Positions 7,790 through 58,807 of a stretch of DNA of 64,000 bases are shown piece by piece. The stretch comes from Rhodothermales bacterium (GTDB lineage: Bacteria; Bacteroidota; Rhodothermia; Rhodothermales; UBA10348). The stretch lies in assembly GCA_028284865.1 (NCBI GenBank), contig JANQQV010000017.1, positions 1-64,000 on the forward strand, read 5' to 3'. Below the pieces are notes generated by a model. That model was not told the origin of the DNA. It made no database searches and worked only from the letters and a program-made list of their open reading frames with translations. A program made the position numbers and the translations under genes. Numbering within the stretch: the stretch's first letter is position 1; each line of letters starts with the position of its first letter.

Positions 7790-7914
7790 GGCAATGCACC
7801 TTCGCGTTAGTGTCGTGGGCGGGTTCGTGACGTGGGTGTTTGCCAGGATCGTCAGATGTTGCGCAGAAGATGTGTCGAAAGTGTCACGATTCCATCATCA
7901 TCCATAAATGACGA

Positions 7915-7942
7915 CCGGCCGCACCCTGTCGGGTGCGGCCGG
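7915..7942 (-). terminator. Perfect 12-bp hairpin downstream of S9 peptidase gene
   Basis: Bases 7915-7926 pair with 7931-7942 (12 bp, all but one pair G-C) around a TGTC loop. It could end transcription of the minus-strand S9 peptidase gene, whose stop is 169 bp upstream. There is no strong T tract. Its right arm forms part of the first unit of the 36-bp repeat array. Confidence 0.55.
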
Positions 7943-8072
7943 GATGGCGAGTGCGGTCGCCCTTTCAGGTGGGGCCGGGATGGCGAGTACGGTCGGCCTT
8001 TCAGGTGCGGCCGGGCTTGCGAGTGCAGTCCGCTTGGCTGGTACGGTCAGGCTTACGAGTACAATCGGCCTG
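7929..8072. repeat. Degenerate 36-bp tandem repeat, four units plus partial fifth
   Basis: Four consecutive 36-base units run 7929-7964, 7965-8000, 8001-8036 and 8037-8072. The first two differ at only a few positions, the third diverges more, the fourth most, and a remnant continues to about 8095. The shared core is GTGCGGCCGGG followed by TTGCGAGT or TGGCGAGT. No spacers separate the units, so this is a minisatellite-like array and not CRISPR. Confidence 0.85.
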
Positions 8073-8110: not shown

Positions 8111-10693
8111 TCAGCGCGTTTGGGGGCGCTCGTTGTTCATCTGGATGATGTCAGCATTCCAGCGATAGTCACCAAGCAGGTGCGTGACGAAGTATTCCGC
8201 GCGCAGCCAGAACCAGTAGTCCGACATGCTGCCGTATCCGTGTCGCTGACCGGGGAATACGAAGAAGTCGAACCGCTTGTTGGCCTTGATCAGTGCATCT
8301 GCCATGCGGTACGTGTTCGCCGGATGCACATTGTTGTCTTCAAGCCCAGTCGTCAGCAACAGCCGCCCTTTCAGGTTGCCAGCCAACTCAGGGTTGGATT
8401 TGATATTGTACTTGAAGGAGACGTTGCCCTCGTCGTCAACGACTTCTTCCACGCCATGATGCTGCTCGGACCAGTACCGGTTGTAGATCTCATTCGTGTG
8501 GTTGCCCGCACTCGAGACCGCCACTTTGAAAAAGTCCGGATAGACGAGCATCGCCGCCGTCGACATGAATCCACCACCTGAGTGGCCGTAAATGCCGATC
8601 CGGTCGATGTCGATATAGTTGTGGCGATCCGCCAACTGCTCGGCAGCCACTTTCTTGTCGGCCAGGCCGTAGTCGCGCAGATTTCCGTACCCGTAGTTGT
8701 GATACCATTTCGAGCGGTTCGGATGACCACCACGGTTACCCACGGTGATCACAACCATCCCGAATTGAGCCAGTGCCGTTTCATAGCGATTCGTACTGAA
8801 CCACTTCGAAACCGATTCGGTCTGAGGACCGGGATAGACGTACTCAACCAGTGGATACTCCTTCGCTTCGTCGAAGTCGAACGGCTTGTACATCACGCCA
8901 TACAGGTCGGTGATGCCATCAGCAGCCTTGACGGTGAACGGCTCCGGGAATTGATACCCGGCTTCCAGAAGCTTGGAGAAGTCTGCCGTCTCCAGTTCGA
9001 CAACGACGCGACCATTGGAATCCTTGACAGCGGATACCGGAGTCGTGTTCACGCGGGAATAATTGTCCACAAAGAAGCGGCCTGATTCGCTGAATACCGC
9101 GCGATGGTCATAGTCGCCGGCATTGAGGAGTCGGAGGCCAGATCCGTCCAGGTTTACGCGGTAGGCGTGCTGGTAATACGGGTCTTCCCCTTCCTCTCGA
9201 CCATTCGCCTGGAAGTAGATCACCCCGGCTGACTGATCGACTCGCTGGATTCCTGCCCGGGTATTCCATGGCCCGGAGGTAATCTGGTTCTTCAGCGCTC
9301 CATCAGGGCCGTGCAGGTACAAGTGACCCCATCCGTCCTGTTCGGACCACCAGATCATGTCCCCATTGTCCAGCAGGTACGGATGGCGCGGCTCGATGTA
9401 GGTATTCATCCGCTCCTCGATGAGCACTTCCGTCTCACCGGTAGCAGCATCCACGCGGAATAGATCAACCCGTTTGTAGTCACGGCTCTTTCGATAAGCC
9501 AGGAAGCTGCCCGGATCGTTGGTGTTCCACGTGCGAACGAACGGAGACTCGTCGGCCGGGTAGCGGAATTGCGGCTTCGAGCCGACCTGGACTTCCTGAT
9601 CGACGAACGCCGAGTCGTTGACTGCCCAAACAGAGTCTGAGACAACAGAGCCCACCTGAAGGTGATACTGGGCTACGTTCTCTTCGCCCGGCATGCCGTA
9701 CTTGTAGCTCTCCAGCTGCGGCCGCTTGTCACCCGTGTAGTGGATGATCCACAGATCGCCAACTTCCCTGACATCCATTCGCATGACGGAGAAGAACTCG
9801 GATCCGGGTGACCAGATGATGTCAGCGCGCTTTCGCTCGTCTTTGTCTTCCTCGACTTGCTCTGCGGTGCGGCCATGGAACTGACTCAGTCGCCAGTTTG
9901 ACGCCACATATGAGAAAAACGGCTCCCCGTCGTGCGTGAGCTGGATTTCCTCGACTTCAACTTCGTCTTCTGCCTCCTGTGCATCATCACCTCTCTTGCC
10001 GCGACGAGCATCGACAATCCTCTGGAAGTCCTCGCCACTCATCTTGTAGAGATTGTCGTGGCGGGCAAAGACGACCCAGTTGCCATCAGGTGAAATGGAC
10101 GCCCAGCCTGGACGGTTGTCCGGCTTCTCCACATCATCCAGTTCGCGCAATGTCTGTGTGCGAACGTCGTATTCGAAGTAGAATACTTTATCGCGCATCT
10201 CAGGCTTCTTTTTGACGGCAGTCGAGTCTTGCTGTGTGTCGCCGGTCTCCGCCTCTTCATCCGGGACTTCTTCCTGGACGCTCGAAGTGACTTCGAATCG
10301 CAGCGTGTTCTGGTCGACGAACTTGATGTTGCGAATCGGGAGATTCTGTCCGTCAAACGGGTCCTTGACAATGCGCGTCAATTCTGCGGCAATCCGGTCA
10401 TTGTCGAAAACGGCCGTTTTCGTGCCCCGAACAGGGTCGACGAGCCAGTAGCTCATACCGTCCGACGTTTCGTAGGAATACCAGAAGGTCTCACCGCCTT
10501 CGATCCAGCGTGGTGAAACCGAAGTCGAATAAATGAGGTCGTTGATGCGATAGGGCGCCCAACGGGAAGCCAACTCATAGTTGGCCGTGCGATGGACATC
10601 ACTGCCGAGGGCCGCGCCGCCGTGGTGGTCCTGAGCGGAGGCGGTCGGAAGCGTCACCAGAAAGGCGATCGCGATAAGGAATGTGAAGCGCAT
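8111..10693 (-). CDS. Exported S9 family peptidase, dipeptidyl-peptidase IV type
   Basis: 860 residues from the ATG at 10693, which opens a signal peptide (MRFTFLIAIAF, cleavage after ASAQ region). An upstream extension to 10909 exists but would bury the signal peptide and overlap the divergent DksA-type gene, so it is rejected. The N-terminal two thirds form a DPP IV-type beta-propeller; the C-terminal alpha/beta-hydrolase domain carries GHSGG (Ser705), an Asp in LEDNNVHP and His in QRHGYGSMSDYW. DPP IV enzymes release X-Pro dipeptides from peptide N-termini. Family members act in the periplasm or at the surface. A charged loop (EVPDEEAETGD) interrupts the propeller. Confidence 0.93.
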   Translation of the reverse strand: MRFTFLIAIAFLVTLPTASAQDHHGGAALGSDVHRTANYELASRWAPYRINDLIYSTSVSPRWIEGGETFWYSYETSDGMSYWLVDPVRGTKTAVFDNDRIAAELTRIVKDPFDGQNLPIRNIKFVDQNTLRFEVTSSVQEEVPDEEAETGDTQQDSTAVKKKPEMRDKVFYFEYDVRTQTLRELDDVEKPDNRPGWASISPDGNWVVFARHDNLYKMSGEDFQRIVDARRGKRGDDAQEAEDEVEVEEIQLTHDGEPFFSYVASNWRLSQFHGRTAEQVEEDKDERKRADIIWSPGSEFFSVMRMDVREVGDLWIIHYTGDKRPQLESYKYGMPGEENVAQYHLQVGSVVSDSVWAVNDSAFVDQEVQVGSKPQFRYPADESPFVRTWNTNDPGSFLAYRKSRDYKRVDLFRVDAATGETEVLIEERMNTYIEPRHPYLLDNGDMIWWSEQDGWGHLYLHGPDGALKNQITSGPWNTRAGIQRVDQSAGVIYFQANGREEGEDPYYQHAYRVNLDGSGLRLLNAGDYDHRAVFSESGRFFVDNYSRVNTTPVSAVKDSNGRVVVELETADFSKLLEAGYQFPEPFTVKAADGITDLYGVMYKPFDFDEAKEYPLVEYVYPGPQTESVSKWFSTNRYETALAQFGMVVITVGNRGGHPNRSKWYHNYGYGNLRDYGLADKKVAAEQLADRHNYIDIDRIGIYGHSGGGFMSTAAMLVYPDFFKVAVSSAGNHTNEIYNRYWSEQHHGVEEVVDDEGNVSFKYNIKSNPELAGNLKGRLLLTTGLEDNNVHPANTYRMADALIKANKRFDFFVFPGQRHGYGSMSDYWFWLRAEYFVTHLLGDYRWNADIIQMNNERPQTR

Positions 10694-10810
10694 GGGCCTG
10701 AAGAACACTGGAATGAGATACAATCGGGGTACAGAACCGCAATGTATCTTGTCAGCCACCGAATCGAAAGAACCCGGGCAAATACCCGGAAAAGCCCTAC
10801 ACCCGACGCG

Positions 10811-11149
10811 ATGACGCCCGACAAACAAGGCAACTTCAAACCCGTCCTGGAAGCGTTGAAGGCGGAGATTGAAGCTGAGTTGACAGGCGGTCCCGAAAAG
10901 GGCGCCCATATCCGACCCGACAATGCGATCGGTCGGCTCACCCGCATGGAAGCCATCCAGGCCCAGAGCATCTCAGAGGCTGGAAAAGCCCGACTTCGAA
11001 AACGATTGCCGCAAATCGATCGCGCGTTGAAAGCCGTTGACGAAGGGACGTACGGGACCTGCGTTAGGTGTGGAGGGGCGATACCGGCCGGGCGGCTGGA
11101 AATACGTCCTGAAAGTCGGCTGTGCGTTGGCTGCGCAGCGCGAACTTGA
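10811..11149 (+). CDS. TraR/DksA-type C4 zinc-finger protein
   Basis: 112 residues from the ATG at 10811; a longer frame from 10592 would run over the 5' end of the divergent peptidase gene and is rejected. The C-terminus carries a C4 zinc finger, CVRCGG (Cys84, Cys87) and CVGC (Cys105, Cys108), after a predicted coiled coil (residues about 45-78) as in DksA/TraR proteins, which bind the RNA polymerase secondary channel. It is shorter than E. coli DksA (151 residues), and I see no clear DxxDxA tip motif, so regulation of polymerase is plausible but not assured. Confidence 0.82.
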   Translation: MTPDKQGNFKPVLEALKAEIEAELTGGPEKGAHIRPDNAIGRLTRMEAIQAQSISEAGKARLRKRLPQIDRALKAVDEGTYGTCVRCGGAIPAGRLEIRPESRLCVGCAART

Positions 11150-11244
11150 CCATCACCACGAAGATGAATTGCTCGCAAGGAGTAACGTCGAAGGTCCGGT
11201 GAAGACAGAGGGTCGTTCTCACCAGACAGTCCCGGACCCATTCC

Positions 11245-11682
11245 ATGCGTTGGTTGCTTTCTCTTTTTCTCGTTTCTGCGCTGCTCGTCGGCTGTTCCAG
11301 TTCTTCCGATTCCGACAATCCAGTTGGACCTGTCATGGAAGAAGATGACTCCGACAACGGTTCAGATGTCCCTGCCACGGCCCGTTTTGCCCAGGATGTG
11401 TTGCCTCTCTTCCAGCAGTCTTGCGCCTCATCCGGGTGTCACGGATCAAGCGCGTCCAGCGGGGTTCGACTGTCCTCCTATGAGGCAACCATGTCGTCCA
11501 CAGGCTCTCAGTATGGTACGTTGATTGTCCAGCCGGGTAATGCTTCTGCCTCTCCGCTAGTAGATAAAATCCAGACCAATCCTGATCGGGGTCAGCGCAT
11601 GCCATTGGGTAGGGCGGCCTGGTCGACTTCCCAAATCCAGACGGTTGTGGACTGGATCAATGCAGGCGCATTGAACAACTGA
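11245..11682 (+). CDS. Lipoprotein c-type cytochrome with CX4CH haem site
   Basis: 145 residues. A lipobox LLVGC (Cys17) is followed by a Ser/Asp/Glu-rich linker and a small cytochrome domain. The haem site is CASSGCH (Cys60, Cys65, His66), a five-residue-step CX4CH form rather than CXXCH; Met119 in QRMPLG is the likely second axial ligand. Similar domains with CX4CH sites occur in surface cytochromes of Bacteroidota and Planctomycetes. The gene is 8 bp upstream of the YceI gene and forms an operon with it and the DUF5777 barrel; electron transfer at the outer membrane is the probable role, by inference. Confidence 0.85.
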   Translation: MRWLLSLFLVSALLVGCSSSSDSDNPVGPVMEEDDSDNGSDVPATARFAQDVLPLFQQSCASSGCHGSSASSGVRLSSYEATMSSTGSQYGTLIVQPGNASASPLVDKIQTNPDRGQRMPLGRAAWSTSQIQTVVDWINAGALNN

Positions 11683-11689
11683 CGCACCC

Positions 11690-12250
11690 ATGCACCGACT
11701 CCTTCTGATTTTCTGCGGTCTGCTACTCTCATCGCAGGTGCTGGCTCAGTCCTACACCTCCGAGGACGGCTATGTGGCATTCCATTCAAAGGTCCCTCTG
11801 CATGACTTTACCGGGGAAGCCAATACGTTGATTGGCAGCATTGATTTCTCGGAGGGCGTGGTCGATTTCTACGTCGATCTCGAGACGCTGAAGACGGGCA
11901 ACCGGAAGCGCGACCGGGATATGCGTCGCACGCTGAATACAGAAGAGCATCCGTTTGCCTCTTTCTACGGGACGCTCGGGAATCTTGAGCAGCTTGCCTC
12001 CGCAGGGACAGGGGATGTCCTCGATGTTCTCGTCACCGGGGCATTCAGCGTGAATGGCATCTCTCGCGATATTGAAGTCCCGGGCACAATCACGTTGCAA
12101 GACGGCAGCATTTCGGTGGAGGCCGCATGGGAAATCCTGCTAGATGACTACGAGGTGGTTCCACCTCGACTCCTGTTCATGAAAGTTGATGAGGTCCAGC
12201 GCCTTGAAATCAAGACTACCCTTCTTCTCCAGGACCCGGAATCAGACTGA
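11690..12250 (+). CDS. YceI family periplasmic lipid-binding-like protein
   Basis: 186 residues with a signal peptide ending VLAQ. The YceI lipocalin-like fold is recognisable from VAFHSKVPLHDFTGEA, the strand pair GSIDFSEGVVDFYVDLETL, RDRDMRRTLNTEEHP and GAFSVNGISRDIEVPG. YceI proteins bind long isoprenoids or related amphiphiles in a barrel pocket. The position between a cytochrome and a DUF5777 barrel is a conserved arrangement in Bacteroidota as I know it, with no settled function. The end overlaps the start of the next gene by 65 bp. Confidence 0.93.
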   Translation: MHRLLLIFCGLLLSSQVLAQSYTSEDGYVAFHSKVPLHDFTGEANTLIGSIDFSEGVVDFYVDLETLKTGNRKRDRDMRRTLNTEEHPFASFYGTLGNLEQLASAGTGDVLDVLVTGAFSVNGISRDIEVPGTITLQDGSISVEAAWEILLDDYEVVPPRLLFMKVDEVQRLEIKTTLLLQDPESD

Positions 12251-46490: not shown

Positions 46491-46831
46491 GGAAGGTTTT
46501 GTCAAGTGCGGCTTGAGGTTACGAAATCATCGTCCGGTTGACAATTCCAGGAGTCACTCAGTGGGCCATTGCGAACTTCGTCAATACCAACGGAACAGGG
46601 CATTGAAGTGGCTCTACCTCTTACATACATTAAAATCGTTCACTACTTGCCGAGGAGCGCTTTGCAATGCCTTGACAACCAATACGATAGCCGGATCCCG
46701 ATGGAAGCCGTGAGTCGCCGATCCGGTAGGCTCCTTGAGCATCCCTCACGTTTCTGATACCAGCAACAATGCTTCAAGCTTGTCGGCTTGCTGCGTTTCC
46801 AGACAGCTACCCCCTCCAACCCGCCACCAAC
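46491..46831. other. Divergent intergenic region between abgT-like and giant adhesin genes
   Basis: This 341-bp gap holds the promoters of both neighbours. TTGACA boxes lie near 46537 and 46670 but no convincing -10 partner is seen at the right distance. No ORF with coding character, tRNA or repeat was recognised. Confidence 0.5.
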
Positions 46832-49800
46832 ATGTATTCCCGTTTTTTCCGCTCATCGAGATCCGCGACTTGGGTCCTGGGTCAGGCAGCTTTGATGCTC
46901 TCCATTCTGGCTATTGGTCTGAATCCGAATGAAGCTCGGGCTCAAACCATTTTCGCAGAGAGCTCCACCGGATCAGAGGTGTTCGGATTGGGGAATCACG
47001 GGCAGTCCTTCACGGCTGCATCGACCGGTACGTTGGGATCGTGGGAAATGAAGATCAACGGATCTATCAATGGCAGCGACGGAACGTATTACCTCTACGA
47101 AGGCGCCGGGTGTGGTGGCACCCTTCTTTCAACGGGAAATTTCATCAATGCCACGGGCAATGGAGTCGGCGGGGACTTCGTACCGGTTCTGGGATTCGGC
47201 AGCGACGGTGTCAGTGTTACGAGTGGTCAGGTTTACACGATTCGTTTTAGCCACAGCGCGGGAAACCGTTTTGCCGCGACCTCCAGCGGCAACCCGTATG
47301 CCGGTGGTGACTACTATTCCCAGTGCCAGCCCTCGTTTTCAAATGCCTATTCACCTGCTGAATGGGTGTTCAGAGCGTCATCCACGATCGTGGTTAGTCC
47401 AAATACGGCGCCGACGGTAACCGGTGTGCCGTCCGACCTGACGTTCACAGAGGACACCCAGGGCAATGTGGACCTGTCAGCTGTGACCGTGGCCGATGCG
47501 GATGGGGACAATGTGACCGTCACGCTCACGGCGTCTGCGGGTACATTCGCCGCCCCGATCAATGATTTCAATGTGACCGAAGGCCGAAGCAATGGCAACA
47601 CGGTCGTAACGTTGAGCGGAACTGCCGCTGCGGTGACTACCTATCTCGATACCGCATCCAATCTGAAGTACACTCCGGCTGCCAATTCTAGCGGAAATGA
47701 TGTCGCGACCATAACAGTGAAAGCCAACGACGGCACGACCGATTCGACGGAGCACACGGCGAATGTGGATGTGACGGCGGTTAATGACCCGCCAGTTCTG
47801 GATGATTCTCAGTCTCCTATACTGACGGCGATCGATGAGGACGCCGGTGATGACGACGGTAGTGGAGCAGACGGAGACGACGATGCCACAGCAAACACAA
47901 ACAACCCAGGCACCACGGTCGGCACGATCGTGGTCGATGGTTCGATAACCGATGTGGATGGCGCAGTCGAAGCCATCGCCGTGACTGGCGTCGACAATAC
48001 TAACGGGGTGTGGCAATACTCGACGGATGGAGGGACGAGCTGGAACAACTTCAGCGGCACGACCGGTTCATCGGTTGACTTGAGCGCCACCGCTCGTCTC
48101 CTGGATGGTACGAATGCGAATCACAAGATTCGTTTTGTGCCCGACATGGATTACAACGGGACCGCGACATTCACCTTCAGAGCGTGGGACAAGAGCACGG
48201 GCACGGCCGGTGCCACAGCGGATGCATCCAGTGGGGGAACAGGAGATTCGGCTTTCTCAACCGCCACGGATACGACGTCCATCACCATCAATTCTCTACC
48301 AGAGCTGGCCACCGTTACGACCACCGCTCCATCTGGCACAGGTATCTTCAATTCTACGCTGGGTGGCAATGTCACCGCTGATGGAGGAGGTGCCATATCT
48401 GAGCGTGGCGTCGTGTGGTCAGTCTCCGACAACACCCCGACAATCGGAGAGGCCAATGTCTTCAAGAACGACAATGGCGCAGGCACGGGCGTATTTAGTG
48501 AGACCATTTTCGGCTTGCAAGGCGCATCTACTACCCACTATGTACGAGCGTACGCTACAAATGCAGCTGGAACGGCTTATGGAGCAGTTCAGACGCTCCA
48601 GACTAACGATCTGGACTGGACGCTTCTGTCCCAGATCAGTGGCATTGTGGGCCCCGCGTCAGTAGTTGCTGAAGGCAACACGCTTTGGGTGGGATCCGTA
48701 GGTGGCTCCACTGTTGGGAAGATCTTCAAGACGACCAAAACAGATCGGTCAACGGACAATCCAATCTTTCAGGGCAATCAGATCTGGGACCTGTTCTTGG
48801 ACGGCAACAACCTGTTTGTAGCGGACAATGTCGGTGACGACATCATTCGCGTGGACAAGAACTCTGGGGCACAGCTGGATATCGCCTCGAACACGATGGA
48901 CAATCCGGTTGGGGTCACAACGGATGGGACGCATGTGTACGCCCTCGACCATCAAGGTGGATCAGGCGGCTATATTCGCCGATTCGACAAGACGAATCTG
49001 GGCGGTCCCACATCGATCGTGGTGTCGAATATCAATCTCGGAGCCGCCGTCGAGGTGGATGACACGTACATCTATTGGAATGAGCAGACGACGATCTACC
49101 GGACGCCCAAAGCGACTCCGGGTGTGAAGGAGCAGATCTGGACCGGATTCAACTATGCGTGGGGTATGCACTTGCATGGCGACATGCTCTACGTCATGGA
49201 CGAGGGTGCAAATAAGTTGTTTGCCGCCAACAAGGATGGCACGGGGATTCTTACTGAGATCCGTTCCGGACTGACGGGCGCACGAAGCGTGTACGTTGAT
49301 GGAGCAGGGGACATCTTCATGGGTCTCTGGTCAGGAGGTTCGGTTGTGAAACTGACCGAAACCGCTCCGACACTTGCCTGGACGGCGGCGTCACAATCAG
49401 CCTACGAACATGCTGGGACCGCGACCGCAACGGCGTCGTTGAGCGAAACAGTATTCACAGGAGGTCCAACGGTCACAGCAACCGTTGGCGTGGGCGGAAC
49501 GGCAACGAATACGACCGACTTCTCGCTCAACACAACGGCCATTTCGATTCCCGCAGGCACGGCAAGTCAGGACATCACAGTCACCATCGTCGATGACAGT
49601 TCGGATGAATCGGACGAAACGGTGGCTTTAAGTCTGACTGGAGTATCTGTGGCGCAAGCAGGAACTCCTGCGACGCACACGTTGACGATTCAGGATGATG
49701 ATCCCCAGGATTGGGGTGATGCGCCCAACGGTTCCTATCCTACCCTGGCCGCGAACAATGGGGCTCGACACATTGCCACCGGACCACATCTCGGCACGAA

Positions 49801-52800
49801 CCGAGATGGTGAGAGTGACGGTCAGCAAAATTCCGATGCCTCGGGTGACGATGGCGACGGAACGGACGATGACGATGGCGTTGCATGGGATGCCTTCCTG
49901 CAGCCGAATATGCAGGAGAACATCGTTGTTTCGGCTTCAGTAGCGGGCAAACTGGATGCCTGGATAGACTTTAACCGGGACGGGGATTGGGCAGACGCCG
50001 GAGAGCAAATATTCACGTCCCAAGACCTCACATCAGGCGCGAACAATCTGTCTTTCACTCCGCCAGCGGGAGCGTCATTGGGCGTGTCATTCGCACGATT
50101 CAGAGTCAGTACGGCTGGTGGTCTTGCGGTGACGGGCCTGGCCTCCGATGGGGAAGTTGAAGACTACCAGGTCACCATAGGTGTCAACCAAACGCCGACG
50201 GTATCTGGAGTCCCGTCTGACCTTTCTTTCACAGAGGACACGTCGGGGAATGTCGATCTGTCTGCTGTCACTGTAGCCGATGCTGACGGCGATGCGCTAA
50301 CCGTCACCTTGACGGCTTCGGCTGGCGTTTTCGGAACGCCAACTGATGGTGCAGCCGTGGGTGGAGGCGTGACGGAAGTGCGTGTCAGCGATACAGTGAT
50401 AACACTCGCCGGTGCTGCCGCCGACATCAATACCTACCTCGATTCTGCGACCAACATCACGTATACCCCGGCCCTCAATGTGAATGGCCAAGATGTCGCG
50501 ACGATCAAGGTTAAAGCGAATGATGGTACGGTTGATTCCGCCGAATCCACAGCCAACGTGGATGTCACGGCGGTGAACGACGATCCAACCGTGGTCTCGG
50601 TGCCCTCGGATGTGACAGTTGTAGAAGACACGCAAACCCAGGTGGATCTTTCGGCGCTCACGTTTGCCGATCTGGATGCGGGAACAGCTTCCGTGACGCT
50701 GACGGTGGCTGTCAACGCCGGAACGCTTGCCGCTTCGAGTGGCGGCAACGTGACGGTGGGTGGAAGCGGAACGGCAACGCTGACGCTCACGGGCACGGCG
50801 GCAAACATCGACACCTATCTCAATACGGCTTCGGCCATTCAGTACACGAGTGCCCTGAACGCCTTCGGTGACGATGCGGCGACACTGACGTTGACTGGAA
50901 ACGACGGCGGCGCAACCGGAACGGGCGGCGGCACGGCGGTGGCTCTCGGCACGGTGACTATCAATATCACGGCGGTTAACGATCCGCCCACGATCACAGG
51001 CATACCAGCGGACGCAACCGTATTGGAGGATGCCCATCCCGCGGCAAATGTTGATTTGTCCTCCATTACCGTTGGAGATCCCGATGGAGACCAACTCACG
51101 GTCACTATTGTATTTGACACGGAAACTAGAATTAGTGTGGGCACCACTCAGTCTCCTGGAGTGACTTTCACGTCGTCTAAGACTACCCTGACGGCAACGG
51201 GCTCTGCAGCCGCAATCAATACGTGGTTGGACCTCCCCAGCGCTGTTCAGTATGAGCTGCCAGTGAGTAATGCCCATGGAGACAACCTGTATTCATTTAC
51301 GGTCAAAGTGGGAGATGGCACTATCGACACCGCACCTGCAACCGTCAACCTTGATGTAGTTTCAGTAAATGACGCACCATCATTTACCACTCTCGGAAAT
51401 CAATTCATCCATGATGATATCGGCCCACAAACGATTGTGGGCTGGGCCTCCAATTTCTCGGCAGGACCTCCGGACGAGAGCGGGCAGGCCCTGGAACCCC
51501 TCTCAAGACGGATTCTCGATGGGGCCGACAAATTTGACGTATTGCCGTCTGTGGATGCTGCAGGTACGTTGACCTACACGCCCAAGCTGGGGGCGTCAGG
51601 AATTGCGCGATTTGCATTTGATCTCAAGGACAACGGAGGAACCGAAAATGGTGGGCGTGACACAGGTACGGGTATCCTCCTGTTCTTTCTCACCAGCACC
51701 AATTCTGCTCCTGTCATTTCGATTCCCGATTCACCGACCGTGACTGAAGATCAGAGTGTTGTGATCAATGGGATTTCAATCTCAGACCAGGATGCGGGAA
51801 CGAGCGATCTCTCTGTAACGCTCACGGCCTCGTCTACAGTAACATTGAAGCAAACCACGGGATTGACGATTACCGCTGGCGCAGACGGTACATCGTCTGT
51901 CACATTCACGGGAACTCTGGCAAACGTAAATGCAGCCTTGGACGGTCTCACTTATGCGCCGACTGCCAATCAGGTTAGTGGTGCTTCAATCAAGATTGAT
52001 GTCTCTGACAACGGCAATACAGGATCTGGCGGAGCATTGACCGATTCGAAAACACTGAATATTGCCGTTACGGCCGTCAACGACGACCCCACGGTTGTTT
52101 CGGTGCCGAGCGATGTTACTGTGATCGAGGATGTGGCCTCCAATGTGGACTTGTCAGCATTGACGTTTGGTGACGTCGATTCCGGCTCAAACGACATCAC
52201 GCTTCAGGTGGCTGTCGGAGTTGGTGTGCTGACCGCCTCTGATGCAGACGGAGTGTCGGTGACTGGAAGTGGTACTACCACGCTGACGTTGACAGGTACA
52301 GCAGGCGAGATAGATTCGTACCTGAATACGGCCTCTGCTATTCGCTATACCGGTGCTGGTGATGCTAATGGTGAAGATTCGGCTACCATCACCCTCACTG
52401 CCAATGACCAAGGACACACTGGAGCGGGAGGAGGAACGAGCGTTCAGCTGGCAACGATTAACATCGATATCACGGCAGTCAACGATGAGCCTTCATTTAC
52501 AAAAGGCGCTGACGTGACGGTCGGCGAAGACTCGGGCGCTTACTCAGCAGCCTTCGCCACAAACATCAGCGCGGGTCCGGCCGATGAGTCGGGCCAGACG
52601 CTCTCGTTCCACGTGATGAACAACACTAACGTGGGGCTCTTCGCTACGGCACCAGCCGTTGCAGCCAACGGAACGCTGACTTTCACGCCAGCCGATGCTC
52701 AGAATGGATCGGCTAACATCACGATTGAGCTGCGCGACGATGGTGGGACGGCCAATGGCGGCGATGACACAAGTCAGAGTGCGACGTTTACGATCAATGT

Positions 52801-55800
52801 CACTGCAGTCAATGACGATCCAACTGTTGCATCGGCGCCGACTGATGTAACCGTGGTCGAGGACACGCAGAGTCAGGTAGATCTATCTGCCCTCACGTTC
52901 GCCGACCTAGACTCAGGTGGCAATGATGTGGTGCTGACCGTGGCTGTTAACGCCGGTGTGCTATCGGCAGCAAGCGCCGGCGGTGTGACCGTCGGAGGCG
53001 ACGGCACCAATACGCTCACGCTCACGGGCACAGCGGCGAACATCGACGCATACCTCAATTCGGCAGCCGCCATCCAGTACACGGGCGCGGCCAATGCAAA
53101 CGGCGACGACGCGGCATCGGTCACGCTCATAGCGAACGACCAGGGCCACGTCGGAGCTGGTGGCGGAACGGATGTACAGCTCGCTACCGTCAACATCGAC
53201 ATCACACCCGTCAACGATCAGCCTTCATTCACGAAGGGCGCCGACGTGACGGTGAGTGAGGATGCTGGCGCGCAGACGGTGTCCAATTGGGCAACGAACA
53301 TCTCCGCCGGACCGGCCAACGAGGCGGCGCAGGCGCTGACGTTCAATGTCACGAATAACTCGAACGTGGGGCTGTTTGCCGCGCAGCCAGCCATCAGCGC
53401 TGACGGTACGCTCACGTTCACGCCCAACGACGGGCTGAGCGGGTTTGCGACCATTACGGTTGAGCTTCAAGATGATGCAGGCACAGCGAATGGCGGTGTG
53501 GATACCAGTGTCGAGGCGCGCTTCGTGATCACGGTGACCGGGGTTAACGATCCTCCGACACTAACCGTGCCAGCGACAGCGACTGTCGCAGAAGATGGAA
53601 GCGTAGCTATTGCCGGTATCACAGCGGGTGATGACGACTCAGGCTCGCTGACGCTTTCCGTGACGGCGACCTCGACGGCAACGCTGGGAACGACGACGGG
53701 CCTGACGGTCAGCTCTGGCGCGAACGGCTCGAGCGCCTTCACGATGCAGGGCTCGCCGGCCGATGTAGCCGCTGCTCTTGCGACGCTTACCTATGCTCCG
53801 AGCGCAAACCAGACGACGGGTGCATCGGTGACGATCAGCCTGAGCGATGGCGAGCTCACGGTCACCAAAACGATTGCCATCACGATTACGGCGGTCAATG
53901 ACCCTCCGATTGCGAACAATGACACGGCTTCGATGCCCTCGGGTTCGAGCATTTCAATCGATGTGCTTTCAAACGACTCCGACGTGGAGACCAGCACGCT
54001 CACGGTGGCATCTGTCACGACGCCTACGGTCGGTACAGCCACCATCAACGCCTCGGGCACAATCGACTTCACAGCCACGCTCGCCGCTGGTGGCACGTCG
54101 ACCTTCAGCTACACCGTCTCCGATGGTGATGGTGGCACGGCGACGGCCACGGTGACGGTCACGATCATTGGCCCAAGCTCCGACGGTGATGGAGTGGATG
54201 ACACGGTAGAAGCCAATGCGCCCAACGGCGGCGATGGCAACTTCGATGGCATGCCAGACTCGCAGCAGACCAATGTCGCCAGTCTTCCGATATCGGCAGG
54301 AGCGAGCCAGGGACAGTATCTGACGGTAGCCGCAGCACCAGGACTGGCGCTCGAGCAAACGGTAAACACGACGATACCCAACCCGGCAGCGGCGCCTACG
54401 GGAGTCACGTTCCCGATTGGCCGCGTGGCCTTCAACGTGAACAACCTCTCTGTGGGCCAGACAACATCGATCAACATCATCCTCCCACGCGGGGTGGTGG
54501 TGGATTCGTACTACAAGTACGGCCCGACACCGGACAATCCGACCGATCACTGGTACGAGTTTACTTACGACGGCGTCTCAGGCGCGGTCCTCTACCCGGA
54601 GACACCAGCCTTCCCGCCCTACATCGTGCTCTTCCTGCGCGATGGCGCGCGTGGTGATGCGGACCTGACGGCGAACGGCATCATCGATGACCCGGGCGTA
54701 CCCATCTTCCGCAACAACATGCTGCCCATGGCCGGCGCTGATGCCGTGACGATGGACGAGGACGCTAGCGCCGTGATCGACGTGCTGGCCAACGACACGG
54801 ATGCCGATGCCGATCCTCTGGCGGTCACCTTTGTCTTCGAGCCCACCAATGGCACGGCTTCGATCGATGATCAGGGCCGCGTCGTCTACACGCCAAACGC
54901 CGACTTCCACGGCACGGATACGTTTGACTATCTGGTCAGCGACGGCAACGGCGCGCCTTCAAGCGCAAGCATCATGGTAACGGTCAATCCGATCGAAGAC
55001 GCACCGGTTGCGATCGACGATACAGCTGCAACCGATGAGGAAGTGGCCGTCGTCGTACCGTTCTTCGCTAATGACTCGGACGCTGACGGCGATGCGTTGC
55101 ACCTTGTCGCGATCGACACTCCGATGAACGGCGAGGTGGTCTACAATAACGACAAGACGCTGACCTACACGCCGGCAACGGGCTTTAATGGCACGGACTC
55201 GTTTACCTATGTCATCAGTGACGGCAAGGCGCAGGCCACGGCCACGGTGACGATCACGGTAACCGGTACGAATGATGCGCCGGTGGGGGTAGCCGACACG
55301 ATTCAGATTGATGAGGACTCCAACTTCGCATTGAACGCGCTGCTTGCCAATGACACGGACGAGGATGGAGATCCACTGATCATTGTGGGTTGGACTGACC
55401 CTAAGAATGGTTTCGTTATGGGGGATGTGGTAGGCACGTTTTTCTACCAGCCCGCTTCAGACTTCTTCGGAACGGACAGCTTCACGTACACTGTGTCTGA
55501 CGGCCAAGCCACATCAACAAGCACGGTCTCGATTACCATCATCGCAGTCAATGATGCCCCCGTCTTCCAAAGCGAGGCGATCAATGGCCCGTTGGACGCC
55601 TTCTTCCTGTCTGAGACGCCCTACGAGGTCACATACATGGACGCTACGGACGTCGATGACACGCAGCTGAACTACACCTGGGAGCTCTCGACGACGGAGG
55701 ACTTCGCAGCGACGGTCATGAGCGTCGACGTCACAGGCGGAACAGCCAGTGTCCCGGCGGCTGATCTCATTGCGGCGCTCGAGCCCGAGGGGCTCGGCTT

Positions 55801-56197
55801 TGGTCAGCAGCTGATGGTCTACCAGCGCATGCGGGCCACGGACGATGAGGCGGCCTCGGGCGCGAGCGCCGCACAGGCCGTTACCTTCGCCCGTGCACTC
55901 AACGTGTCCAACGAGAGCGAGCTCGGCATCCCAACCGAGTTCTACCTCTCGGACAATTACCCGAACCCGTTCAATCCGAGCACGACGATTGAGTTTGGAC
56001 TGCCGCAGGCGGCTCACGTGACGATCACGATGTACGACATCAACGGTCGTCAAGTACAGCTGATCACCGATCGGCAGTTGGCGCCGGGTGTGCACCGCGA
56101 GCGCATCGACATGGGCACCTTACCCAGCGGCGTTTATCTCTACCGAATGACTGCGGGCAGCAAGGTGTTCACCAAGACGCTGCACCTGATTAAGTAG
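46832..56197 (+). CDS. Giant T9SS-exported multi-domain repeat protein (adhesin-like)
   Basis: 3,121 residues from the ATG at 46832 (a 46769 ATG would add 21 residues ahead of the signal peptide, which ends ARAQ). Order by nucleotide: N-terminal beta-domain 46945-47407; cadherin-like module 47408-47788; further modules with a FnIII-like GVVWS/YYVRAYATN-type unit near 48300-48600; NHL-like propeller 48610-49370; Calx-beta 49376-49710; GEVED-type domain (DGEVEDYQV) to 50190; repeats 50192-53551; more Ig/cadherin modules; choice-of-anchor U-like region 54172-54720; three tandem-95-type modules 54720-55555; sorting domain 55906-56197 (YPNPFNPST, DINGRQ, PSGVYLYRM). Many DxDGD sites suggest Ca2+ binding. 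Likely surface adhesin; function inferred. Confidence 0.9.
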   Translation: MYSRFFRSSRSATWVLGQAALMLSILAIGLNPNEARAQTIFAESSTGSEVFGLGNHGQSFTAASTGTLGSWEMKINGSINGSDGTYYLYEGAGCGGTLLSTGNFINATGNGVGGDFVPVLGFGSDGVSVTSGQVYTIRFSHSAGNRFAATSSGNPYAGGDYYSQCQPSFSNAYSPAEWVFRASSTIVVSPNTAPTVTGVPSDLTFTEDTQGNVDLSAVTVADADGDNVTVTLTASAGTFAAPINDFNVTEGRSNGNTVVTLSGTAAAVTTYLDTASNLKYTPAANSSGNDVATITVKANDGTTDSTEHTANVDVTAVNDPPVLDDSQSPILTAIDEDAGDDDGSGADGDDDATANTNNPGTTVGTIVVDGSITDVDGAVEAIAVTGVDNTNGVWQYSTDGGTSWNNFSGTTGSSVDLSATARLLDGTNANHKIRFVPDMDYNGTATFTFRAWDKSTGTAGATADASSGGTGDSAFSTATDTTSITINSLPELATVTTTAPSGTGIFNSTLGGNVTADGGGAISERGVVWSVSDNTPTIGEANVFKNDNGAGTGVFSETIFGLQGASTTHYVRAYATNAAGTAYGAVQTLQTNDLDWTLLSQISGIVGPASVVAEGNTLWVGSVGGSTVGKIFKTTKTDRSTDNPIFQGNQIWDLFLDGNNLFVADNVGDDIIRVDKNSGAQLDIASNTMDNPVGVTTDGTHVYALDHQGGSGGYIRRFDKTNLGGPTSIVVSNINLGAAVEVDDTYIYWNEQTTIYRTPKATPGVKEQIWTGFNYAWGMHLHGDMLYVMDEGANKLFAANKDGTGILTEIRSGLTGARSVYVDGAGDIFMGLWSGGSVVKLTETAPTLAWTAASQSAYEHAGTATATASLSETVFTGGPTVTATVGVGGTATNTTDFSLNTTAISIPAGTASQDITVTIVDDSSDESDETVALSLTGVSVAQAGTPATHTLTIQDDDPQDWGDAPNGSYPTLAANNGARHIATGPHLGTNRDGESDGQQNSDASGDDGDGTDDDDGVAWDAFLQPNMQENIVVSASVAGKLDAWIDFNRDGDWADAGEQIFTSQDLTSGANNLSFTPPAGASLGVSFARFRVSTAGGLAVTGLASDGEVEDYQVTIGVNQTPTVSGVPSDLSFTEDTSGNVDLSAVTVADADGDALTVTLTASAGVFGTPTDGAAVGGGVTEVRVSDTVITLAGAAADINTYLDSATNITYTPALNVNGQDVATIKVKANDGTVDSAESTANVDVTAVNDDPTVVSVPSDVTVVEDTQTQVDLSALTFADLDAGTASVTLTVAVNAGTLAASSGGNVTVGGSGTATLTLTGTAANIDTYLNTASAIQYTSALNAFGDDAATLTLTGNDGGATGTGGGTAVALGTVTINITAVNDPPTITGIPADATVLEDAHPAANVDLSSITVGDPDGDQLTVTIVFDTETRISVGTTQSPGVTFTSSKTTLTATGSAAAINTWLDLPSAVQYELPVSNAHGDNLYSFTVKVGDGTIDTAPATVNLDVVSVNDAPSFTTLGNQFIHDDIGPQTIVGWASNFSAGPPDESGQALEPLSRRILDGADKFDVLPSVDAAGTLTYTPKLGASGIARFAFDLKDNGGTENGGRDTGTGILLFFLTSTNSAPVISIPDSPTVTEDQSVVINGISISDQDAGTSDLSVTLTASSTVTLKQTTGLTITAGADGTSSVTFTGTLANVNAALDGLTYAPTANQVSGASIKIDVSDNGNTGSGGALTDSKTLNIAVTAVNDDPTVVSVPSDVTVIEDVASNVDLSALTFGDVDSGSNDITLQVAVGVGVLTASDADGVSVTGSGTTTLTLTGTAGEIDSYLNTASAIRYTGAGDANGEDSATITLTANDQGHTGAGGGTSVQLATINIDITAVNDEPSFTKGADVTVGEDSGAYSAAFATNISAGPADESGQTLSFHVMNNTNVGLFATAPAVAANGTLTFTPADAQNGSANITIELRDDGGTANGGDDTSQSATFTINVTAVNDDPTVASAPTDVTVVEDTQSQVDLSALTFADLDSGGNDVVLTVAVNAGVLSAASAGGVTVGGDGTNTLTLTGTAANIDAYLNSAAAIQYTGAANANGDDAASVTLIANDQGHVGAGGGTDVQLATVNIDITPVNDQPSFTKGADVTVSEDAGAQTVSNWATNISAGPANEAAQALTFNVTNNSNVGLFAAQPAISADGTLTFTPNDGLSGFATITVELQDDAGTANGGVDTSVEARFVITVTGVNDPPTLTVPATATVAEDGSVAIAGITAGDDDSGSLTLSVTATSTATLGTTTGLTVSSGANGSSAFTMQGSPADVAAALATLTYAPSANQTTGASVTISLSDGELTVTKTIAITITAVNDPPIANNDTASMPSGSSISIDVLSNDSDVETSTLTVASVTTPTVGTATINASGTIDFTATLAAGGTSTFSYTVSDGDGGTATATVTVTIIGPSSDGDGVDDTVEANAPNGGDGNFDGMPDSQQTNVASLPISAGASQGQYLTVAAAPGLALEQTVNTTIPNPAAAPTGVTFPIGRVAFNVNNLSVGQTTSINIILPRGVVVDSYYKYGPTPDNPTDHWYEFTYDGVSGAVLYPETPAFPPYIVLFLRDGARGDADLTANGIIDDPGVPIFRNNMLPMAGADAVTMDEDASAVIDVLANDTDADADPLAVTFVFEPTNGTASIDDQGRVVYTPNADFHGTDTFDYLVSDGNGAPSSASIMVTVNPIEDAPVAIDDTAATDEEVAVVVPFFANDSDADGDALHLVAIDTPMNGEVVYNNDKTLTYTPATGFNGTDSFTYVISDGKAQATATVTITVTGTNDAPVGVADTIQIDEDSNFALNALLANDTDEDGDPLIIVGWTDPKNGFVMGDVVGTFFYQPASDFFGTDSFTYTVSDGQATSTSTVSITIIAVNDAPVFQSEAINGPLDAFFLSETPYEVTYMDATDVDDTQLNYTWELSTTEDFAATVMSVDVTGGTASVPAADLIAALEPEGLGFGQQLMVYQRMRATDDEAASGASAAQAVTFARALNVSNESELGIPTEFYLSDNYPNPFNPSTTIEFGLPQAAHVTITMYDINGRQVQLITDRQLAPGVHRERIDMGTLPSGVYLYRMTAGSKVFTKTLHLIK
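47408..47788 (+). repeat. Type C cadherin/Ig-like module, copy 1
   Basis: 127 codons, beginning APTVTGVPSDLTFTED and ending VDVTAVND. It is clearly related at protein level to copy 2 at 50192, which shares VPSDL, GNVDLSAVTVADADGD, LTASAG and ITVKANDGT-type segments. The two copies are separated by 2.4 kb of other domains. Confidence 0.85.
50192..50581 (+). repeat. Type C cadherin/Ig-like module, copy 2
   Basis: 130 codons, beginning TPTVSGVPSDLSFTED and ending VDVTAVND. Related to copy 1 at 47408; placed directly before the first type A module. It has a DADGDALTV Ca2+-site-like motif. Confidence 0.85.
50582..50983 (+). repeat. Type A module, first copy (402 bp)
   Basis: 134 codons, beginning DPTVVSVPSDVTV and ending ITAVND. 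Two further copies of exactly 402 bp lie at 52085-52486 and 52817-53218, showing that module length is conserved while sequence drifts. Confidence 0.88.
52085..53551 (+). repeat. Tandem pair of A+B units, 732 bp and 735 bp
   Basis: Unit 1 is 52085-52816 (A 402 bp, B 330 bp); unit 2 is 52817-53551 (A 402 bp, B 333 bp). Both A parts start DPTV and both B parts contain PSFTKGADVTV, NISAGPA and GTLTFTP. The two units are clear duplicates: same domain order, matched lengths and many identical residues. A degenerate B-like module at 51373-51700 precedes them. Confidence 0.9.
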
Positions 56198-56236: not shown

Positions 56237-56268
56237 AGGGGAGGGTGGCCAACAGGCCATCCTCCCTT
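56237..56268 (+). terminator. Hairpin after giant repeat-protein gene
   Basis: 14-bp stem (56237-56250 with 56255-56268, two G-U pairs) around an AACA loop, 40 bp past the stop codon. A T-rich but broken stretch (TTGGTTTGGG) follows. Likely transcription terminator before the choice-of-anchor B gene. Confidence 0.7.
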
Positions 56269-56410
56269 GGTTGGTTTGGGAGAATTCTGGTCGCCCAGAT
56301 CAGAGTCGATTTTCAGAAACGCAGACACACAATCCGCGTTAGGCATGGTCTACGCCCGCTTTCAATCCGGGGCGCTTCACGTTCAACCCAACTTATTCTG
56401 TCCCACGACC

Positions 56411-58807
56411 ATGAATCGATCATTCGTTTCAAACGTGTTTTCGCGCATGTTGGCGCTTCTTGTGGCCGTGGCCTTCATGGCCACTCCTGCGTTCGCTCAG
56501 TCCCTGGCCGTCACGGGCTCCACGGGCCTCGGATTTGGCGGCTCCGTCTCCATTTCCGGAAATCACATTGTTGTCGGCTCCGCCCCGACCGGTTGGCCTC
56601 GCGGTGACGAACCTGCAGGCGTCGTGTATGTGTTCGCTCGTGACATGGACGGATCCTGGAATGAATCGGCTCGCCTCATGGCGTCCGACGCCCAGATTGG
56701 CGACGATTTTGGACGTACGGTCTTCATGCGTGACGGACGCATCGTCGTTGGTGCGCCCGGCATGAACGCCGCTTACGTTTTTGAACAGCAGGAAGACGCC
56801 GAGTGGGTCCAGACAGGCAAACTGCAGCCGTCTGAGTTGGCTGAAGGATCCGAGTTCGGTGGTGCCTATGCACGTGCCGGTTCGCGCACCGACAACATCG
56901 CCATGGCCGGCGATCAGATCATCGTCACGTCCTATAACGGCGATACGCACACGGGAGCCGCCCACGTATTTCGTCCATCCGAGGATGGATGGGTTGAAAT
57001 GGCAACGCTGAATGCCGCAACGGCTAAAGAAGGCGACGGATTTGGTTTCAGTGTTGCTGCCAACGCGGGCAACATCTTCGTGTCAGCTCCTCGCACGAAC
57101 GATCAGGCAGGTGTCGTCTATGTCTTCATGGACCACGGCTATTGGATGCAGATGGGAATGCTTCGACCAACCGGCGAAGGTGCTGCGCAGCTTGGCGCGT
57201 TCCTGGCTGAAGCGGACGGCAAAGTCTACGCAGGTGCTCCTGCAGCAAACCGGACCGGAGCCGTAGAGGTCTATGAGTTGAAGCCGAACGGCATGTTTGG
57301 CCACGCATCTACGATTGCTCCTGAAGTGGCTGAAGGAGAACGCATGTTCGGCTTCGGTCGTGGCGTGGACGTGTCAGGCGACCATGCGATGATCACCGCC
57401 GGTGGTGCCGCATTCGCTGTGAATCTGAGCTCTGGTGAAATGACCCGTATCGATGCGCCCGAGCGTCGCTTGCAGCCAGGTTTCGGTATCGGCGTCGCTT
57501 TCGAAGGTCGAACCGCCGTCATCGGCAGCCCAACGGCCGACTACGAGGCCGGGTTGGCCAGCGTCTGGGAGGTCATGGACAACGGATGGAATCAGGTGGG
57601 CTTGCTCGAAAGCGAAGTCGTTCGCTTCCAGTCCTATTCTGGCGACAAAGTGGATTGTGAGGACGGAGAGGCGCAGGGCTTCGGCTGTGACAACGTCGAC
57701 CTGGTCTCATTTATGAGCATCGGCGATGTCTCCAGCGATCGCGGCGTAGGCATGACCGACATCTGGGGCTGGGAAGACCCGGTCACGGGCAAGGAGTGGG
57801 TGCTTCTTGGTCGCACGGAAGGTGTGTCATTCGTCGACATCAGCGATCCAGGTCACCCCGTCTGGGTGGGTGAGCTGCCAAAAACCGCTTCTTCACCAGG
57901 TAGTGGATGGCGCGACGTCAAGGTGTTCAAGGACCACGCATTTGTGGTCGCCGACGGTGCGGAGCAGCATGGCCTCCAGATCTTCGACCTGACTCAGTTG
58001 CGCGACGTGGATCCGGCTGACATGCCGGTCACCTTCCCGGAAACCGCCCGCTACGACGGTACGGCCTCCACGCACAACGTGGTGATCAACGAAGTATCCG
58101 GCTACGCCTATCTGGTCGGCAACCGCTCCGGTGGAGAAACCTGTAGCGGTCAGCTGCACATGGTCGATATCAACGACCCGCAGAATCCGGTCTTTGCGGG
58201 CTGTCAGTCCTTCGGTGATGCCGGTGGCACGCACGACTCGCAGTGTGTGATGTACGAAGGCGACGACACAGACTACCAGGGTCGTGAGATCTGCTTCAAC
58301 TCCAGCGGCAACATGTTTGTGATCGCCGACGTGACGGACAAGGATGCACCGGAAACGCTGGCAGCCACGTCCTACCCGAACCAGGCCTACACACACCAGG
58401 GCTGGCTGACGGAAGACCACAACTACTTCTACATGAACGACGAGCTCGACGAGCTGGGTGGTCTGACCGAGAATACACGGACCTTGATCTGGGATGTGCG
58501 CGATCTGGAAGACCCTGTTCTCGTACGTGAGTTTTTCCTTTCGAGCCCTGCATCGGACCACAACCTCTACATCCGGGACAACTTCATGTACCAGTCCAAC
58601 TACCAGGCTGGACTGCGCATTCTGGACGTCTCTGACCCGGAAAACCCGGTTGAAGTCGGACACTTCGACACCGTACCGTTCGGCGAAGACGAGGCTGGAT
58701 TCGGTGGCTCCTGGAGCAACTACCCGTTCTTCAGCAGCGGCATCATCGCCGTAAGCAGTCGAGGCGAAGGCCTCTTCCTGCTGCGCAAGCGTCAGCAGGA
58801 TCTCTAG
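56411..58807 (+). CDS. Exported choice-of-anchor B family protein with FG-GAP repeats
   Basis: 798 residues from the ATG at 56411; a longer frame from 56267 would cross the hairpin and is rejected. Signal peptide ends AFAQ. Residues about 20-390 are FG-GAP-type propeller blades (IVVGAPGMNAAYVFEQ, DDFGRTVF). The second half is the choice-of-anchor B region: RGVGMTDIWGWEDP, TEGVSFVDISDPGHPVWVG, QLHMVDINDPQNPVFAG, SYPNQAYTHQGWL and ILDVSDPENPVEVG, i.e. LVIVD-like repeats. The C-terminus lacks the PNP/GR T9SS pattern, so the anchor is not evident. Role unknown. Confidence 0.88.
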   Translation: MNRSFVSNVFSRMLALLVAVAFMATPAFAQSLAVTGSTGLGFGGSVSISGNHIVVGSAPTGWPRGDEPAGVVYVFARDMDGSWNESARLMASDAQIGDDFGRTVFMRDGRIVVGAPGMNAAYVFEQQEDAEWVQTGKLQPSELAEGSEFGGAYARAGSRTDNIAMAGDQIIVTSYNGDTHTGAAHVFRPSEDGWVEMATLNAATAKEGDGFGFSVAANAGNIFVSAPRTNDQAGVVYVFMDHGYWMQMGMLRPTGEGAAQLGAFLAEADGKVYAGAPAANRTGAVEVYELKPNGMFGHASTIAPEVAEGERMFGFGRGVDVSGDHAMITAGGAAFAVNLSSGEMTRIDAPERRLQPGFGIGVAFEGRTAVIGSPTADYEAGLASVWEVMDNGWNQVGLLESEVVRFQSYSGDKVDCEDGEAQGFGCDNVDLVSFMSIGDVSSDRGVGMTDIWGWEDPVTGKEWVLLGRTEGVSFVDISDPGHPVWVGELPKTASSPGSGWRDVKVFKDHAFVVADGAEQHGLQIFDLTQLRDVDPADMPVTFPETARYDGTASTHNVVINEVSGYAYLVGNRSGGETCSGQLHMVDINDPQNPVFAGCQSFGDAGGTHDSQCVMYEGDDTDYQGREICFNSSGNMFVIADVTDKDAPETLAATSYPNQAYTHQGWLTEDHNYFYMNDELDELGGLTENTRTLIWDVRDLEDPVLVREFFLSSPASDHNLYIRDNFMYQSNYQAGLRILDVSDPENPVEVGHFDTVPFGEDEAGFGGSWSNYPFFSSGIIAVSSRGEGLFLLRKRQQDL

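Follow-up and report, generated by a model that had tools for sequence, protein, structure and literature searches.

A 3,121-residue predicted T9SS cargo protein of a Rhodothermales bacterium with a probable old tandem duplication of a two-module unit

Type A tails are the commonest signal for export by the T9SS, very large adhesins are among its known cargo, and RemA of Flavobacterium bears a C-terminal domain (CTD) of type A (PMC10202324). Giant proteins of the tandem-95 type from planctomycetes were taken by the authors who described them to be calcium-binding, cadherin-like adhesins (PMC7717043). Our literature searches joining T9SS with cadherin and tandem repeat, GEVED or Calx-beta returned no paper, and none was found on the shuffling of bacterial cadherin-like domains. 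Here, a gene combining such parts is described from a 64,000-nucleotide stretch of a Rhodothermales genome (the window); its features are as follows.

46832..56197, + strand: complete coding sequence, 3,121 aa, open frame from the ATG at 46832 to the stop at 56197
46832..47407, + strand: putative signal peptide (judged by eye) and N-terminal domain without a Pfam match
47408..47788, + strand: cadherin-like module m01, near-copy of m03 (71% amino acid identity, sister in the tree at 90/92)
47789..50191, + strand: 801-aa block (residues 320-1120), skipped by the co-linear alignment to the homologue at locus L058
48605..49330, + strand: six-bladed beta-propeller, NHL/YWTD-like (AF2 model, structure match)
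49424..49786, + strand: Calx-beta-like domain (PF03160; 28.5 bits scanned alone, 21.3 in the whole protein, cut-off 27)
49952..50176, + strand: GEVED domain, residues 1041-1115 (PF20009; 56.6 bits, cut-off 24.4)
50192..50581, + strand: cadherin-like module m03 (module alignment)
50582..50983, + strand: module A1, 134 aa (clade with A2 and A3)
51374..51703 (approximate), + strand: module B0, a diverged third B (39-41% identity to B1 and B2; B HMM match at residues 1515-1633)
52085..52486, + strand: module A2, 134 aa (module alignment)
52487..52816, + strand: module B1, 110 aa, 330 bp (module alignment)
52817..53218, + strand: module A3, 134 aa (module alignment; AF2 model of A3-B2)
53219..53551, + strand: module B2, 111 aa, 333 bp (module alignment; AF2 model of A3-B2)
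53903..56194, + strand: conserved C-terminal frame, 764 aa (matches in other proteins)
54395..54703, + strand: choice-of-anchor U domain, residues 2522-2624 (NF041766; 55.6 bits, cut-off 32)
55958..56179, + strand: T9SS type A sorting domain, residues 3043-3116 (PF18962, 41.4 bits, cut-off 27; TIGR04183, 37 bits, cut-off 23)

The reading frame, whose product of 3,121 residues was reported in an earlier note on this DNA, is intact along its whole length, and a second in-frame ATG at 46769 would make the product 21 residues longer. The protein is acidic in composition (287 Asp); with residues 1-38 left out, its predicted pI is about 4.05 and its predicted mass about 312 kDa. Downstream, the gene at 56267-58807 codes for a member of the choice-of-anchor B family (TIGR04312, 421 bits), in which FG-GAP-like N-terminal repeats were recognised by eye. 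Far upstream, at 7924-8030, lies a G+C-rich tandem repeat of 36 bp in three copies (85% matches), possibly composed of imperfect 18-bp units, which is outside every open reading frame of at least 100 aa, one of these stopping at 7907.

Read directly by eye, residues 1-39 resemble a typical Sec signal. The N-terminal domain matched only the N-terminus of the nearest homologue (36% identity); its Pfam scan gave no match. At the other end of the chain, the type A tail exceeded the cut-offs of both families. The organism's own genome encodes 79 such tails, together with SprA (1932 bits), several proteins of the PorV family (PorV, 340 bits) and a PorU-type sortase (966 bits), so that the predicted export of this protein by the T9SS, already proposed in the earlier note, is well supported.

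Several families were found over their curated cut-offs in Pfam and NCBIfam: Big_9, Cadherin_4, Cadherin_5, GEVED, Por_Secre_tail, tandem-95 and choice-of-anchor U. The tandem-95 model (NF012211) matched in 13 stretches, with 360.6 bits against a cut-off of 90. Searching the PDB by sequence returned no match. The protein had been described as an unusual mosaic of cadherin-like, Calx-beta, GEVED, NHL-like and choice-of-anchor U-like parts. The HMM check confirmed the cadherin-like, GEVED and choice-of-anchor U parts, while the Calx-beta part was marginal, falling on either side of the cut-off depending on how it was scanned. The NHL-like segment gave no match to NHL in Pfam, either within the whole protein or alone, but its fold was modelled by AF2 from the single sequence as a six-bladed propeller (mean pLDDT 70, pTM 0.70), which resembled the NHL domain of PknD (1rwi/1rwl; TM about 0.80) and also the designed Pizza propellers (TM about 0.8). 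A search of 114 genomes from the order turned up no relative of this propeller at E <= 1e-8. The mosaic itself is of a familiar sort, and not unusual, because a paralogue in the same genome (contig C8) has a similar mixture of Calx-beta, cadherin-like modules and a T9SS tail, and the C-terminal frame occurs in at least four other proteins.

This frame has the order Big_9, choice-of-anchor U, three Big_9/tandem-95 modules, an Fn-like segment and the T9SS tail. It was matched end to end by proteins of the genomes G013 (46% identity), G001 (a congener, 41%) and G008 (38%), and over approximately its last two thirds by the C8 paralogue (36%). A strict orthologue was not found within the genus, the congener G001 having only the C-terminal frame in common with the protein. 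The nearest homologue (contig C7 of G013, locus L058, ORF from 4962) belongs to another genus of the same family and is a 2,160-aa open frame; its alignment with the protein of the window is co-linear, taking in the N-terminus and residues 1119-3121 (41% for the latter), and shows 41% identity over 2,040 columns. Both proteins possess the N-terminal domain, the entire C-terminal frame and, between the head and this frame, ten cadherin-like modules, or beads, ending in B-C. The order of the beads, as assigned by HMM and identity, differs: A A B B A A B B B C in the homologue and A A A B C A B A B C in the window.

A second difference is that the homologue lacks both the m01 copy and the 801-aa block, which in the window stands between m01 and m03 and contains a cadherin-like module (m02), an Fn3-like segment recognised by eye, the propeller, the Calx-beta domain and GEVED. 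In the tree, the first bead of the homologue is placed beside the m01+m03 pair (81/90). The m01/m03 pair with its block is a larger rearrangement than the A+B duplication that had been reported first; the pair had been overlooked then, as had the third B module (B0) and a further diverged pair, m07/m12. The likelier explanation, to which we nevertheless give somewhat less than an even chance in its full form, is that the block entered an ancestral cadherin-like array as a single cassette, the flanking m01/m03 module being duplicated; if so, it would be a visible trace of head swapping driven by module homology in T9SS adhesins. Alternatively, the block may have been lost in the G013 lineage.

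The fold of the modules was approached with the A3-B2 stretch, modelled by AF2 (pLDDT 87.8) with an alignment of 23 two-module rows, which also served for the analysis of conservation. Foldseek matched this model mostly to tandem cadherin EC domains of the PDB (E about 1e-7), the top two matches being a fucoidan hydrolase; the TM-scores to cadherin pairs were moderate (about 0.4-0.56), presumably because the inter-domain angles differ. The A and B modules are, according to this model, predicted to have a cadherin-like fold. Across all 23 aligned two-module stretches, the N-D of the linker and an E-D pair do not vary, and these positions, together with the low pI, would fit a rod stiffened by calcium.

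The product is likely to be a T9SS-exported adhesin or stalk, either surface-bound or released, whose array has grown by the duplication of modules; calcium binding, adhesion and the mechanism of recombination are what we infer from the features above. The Sec signal and the type A C-terminal domain would carry the protein over both membranes, the cadherin-like beta-sandwich modules with their VND-x-P linkers might form a long acidic rod, probably calcium-stiffened, and the propeller, Calx-beta, GEVED and N-terminal domains could serve as binding heads. The array would be extended at the level of modules: an A+B unit may have been copied in tandem long ago (giving A2B1 and A3B2), and an m01-type module may have been copied to both sides of the inserted block. 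Another explanation could be that the protein acts chiefly, after release, as an enzyme or as a factor that binds ligands, in which the propeller and GEVED do the work and the modules are spacers. The resemblance of the six-bladed propeller to NHL/YWTD folds would agree with this, and T9SS cargo may be freed into the medium as well as anchored (PMC10202324); but no catalytic family was found in Pfam or NCBIfam, and the homologue without the propeller/GEVED block still retains the rest of the protein, which makes such a role unlikely and leaves the adhesin or stalk as the preferred reading.

The three A modules, reported earlier to be 402 bp each, are indeed 134 codons long and align without gaps at 66, 70 and 73% amino acid identity in the three pairs. 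B1 and B2 are 66% identical and differ by one codon, so that the description of the modules as exact in length applies to A and not to B. The two tandem A+B units of 732 and 735 bp were recovered at exactly 52085-53551, and the 402/330/333 spacing was also obtained with a DNA repeat finder. Local alignment scores exceeded those of shuffled sequences by 40-50 SD for the A pairs and by 43 SD for B1-B2.

In a tree of 42 rows, A1, A2 and A3 formed one clade (100/97) against all sampled outside modules, with A2 and A3 as sisters (99/89). The A2+A3 pairing was lost in a smaller tree restricted to the modules of the window and of G013, and the raw identity of A1-A3 (73%) is slightly higher than that of A2-A3 (70%), contrary to this pairing. 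B1 and B2 paired at 86/91 in a reduced set, with no resolution in the 31-row tree. When the units were concatenated, A2B1 and A3B2 paired at 100/99 against the two AB units of G013. Where a residue is shared, the A and B pairs are 31-40% identical at four-fold degenerate third positions, compared with 27% expected from base composition; these sites are therefore near saturation and the duplication is old. Codon positions 1 and 2 remain 70-83% identical between the copies, which fits purifying selection. Judged from these comparisons, A2B1 and A3B2 probably arose by tandem duplication of one A+B unit, although the support from single modules varies with taxon sampling. Old unequal recombination followed by drift, as put forward in the earlier note, is thus upheld with respect to the old duplication (from the trees) and the later divergence (from the four-fold sites), whereas the recombination step is read only from the tandem layout and the argument from length does not hold, as discussed below.

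It is also conceivable that the two AB units were gained independently, through recombination with other genes bearing A and B modules. The occurrence of A and B apart from each other in other phyla would be in line with this, as would the poor resolution of the B trees and the fact that no AB stretch was found elsewhere in the same genome or in six congeners; the monophyly of A1-A3 and the strong pairing of the AB units, however, speak against it, and we regard an independent gain as improbable and tandem duplication as the preferred origin. An assembly artefact, which had been named as a possible refutation of the second unit, is very unlikely even in a draft genome of 28 contigs because the two units differ at about 37% of the nucleotide sites in A and about 34% in B with the frame intact, while errors of collapse or duplication would give near-identical copies.

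The equal length of modules with divergent sequences had been taken as a sign of unequal recombination. With module bounds set by HMM envelopes, the A HMM found copies in Planctomycetes, 26 of 28 of which are exactly 136 aa long, and the B HMM found ten B modules in a row, each of 110 aa, in a protein of Aquimarina. These ten modules (locus L041, approximately 8492-11791) are mutually at least 75% identical and represent a much younger expansion of B. Among pairs taken from a single outside protein, lengths were equal in all seven A pairs at 60-80% identity and in both B pairs at 60-75% identity; between proteins, they were equal in 119 of 130 A pairs at 60-70% identity, these counts being non-independent because the copies are related to one another. 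Since equal length is so common at similar divergence in unrelated proteins, it is a property of the bead family and its fold and is uninformative on duplication; as a special clue it was ruled out, being the norm among related modules.

Growth by the copying of beads is ordinary for proteins of this kind, and the gene may best be regarded as a tidy case of evolution in an already familiar manner, of more use to annotation than a surprise. It appears to belong to one lineage of T9SS surface proteins in which the C-terminal frame is fixed, while the outer modules are duplicated, reordered and exchanged between genera. The repeated cadherin-like bead is common to this protein and to the giant proteins of the tandem-95 (NF012211) or Big_9, Cadherin_4 and Cadherin_5 type, from which it differs in its T9SS tail and in the block that holds the propeller, Calx-beta and GEVED. 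With SprB and RemA of Flavobacterium it shares, by description, the presumed character of a modular surface adhesin exported by the T9SS; SprB, however, carries a type B CTD, whereas that of the protein described here is of type A.
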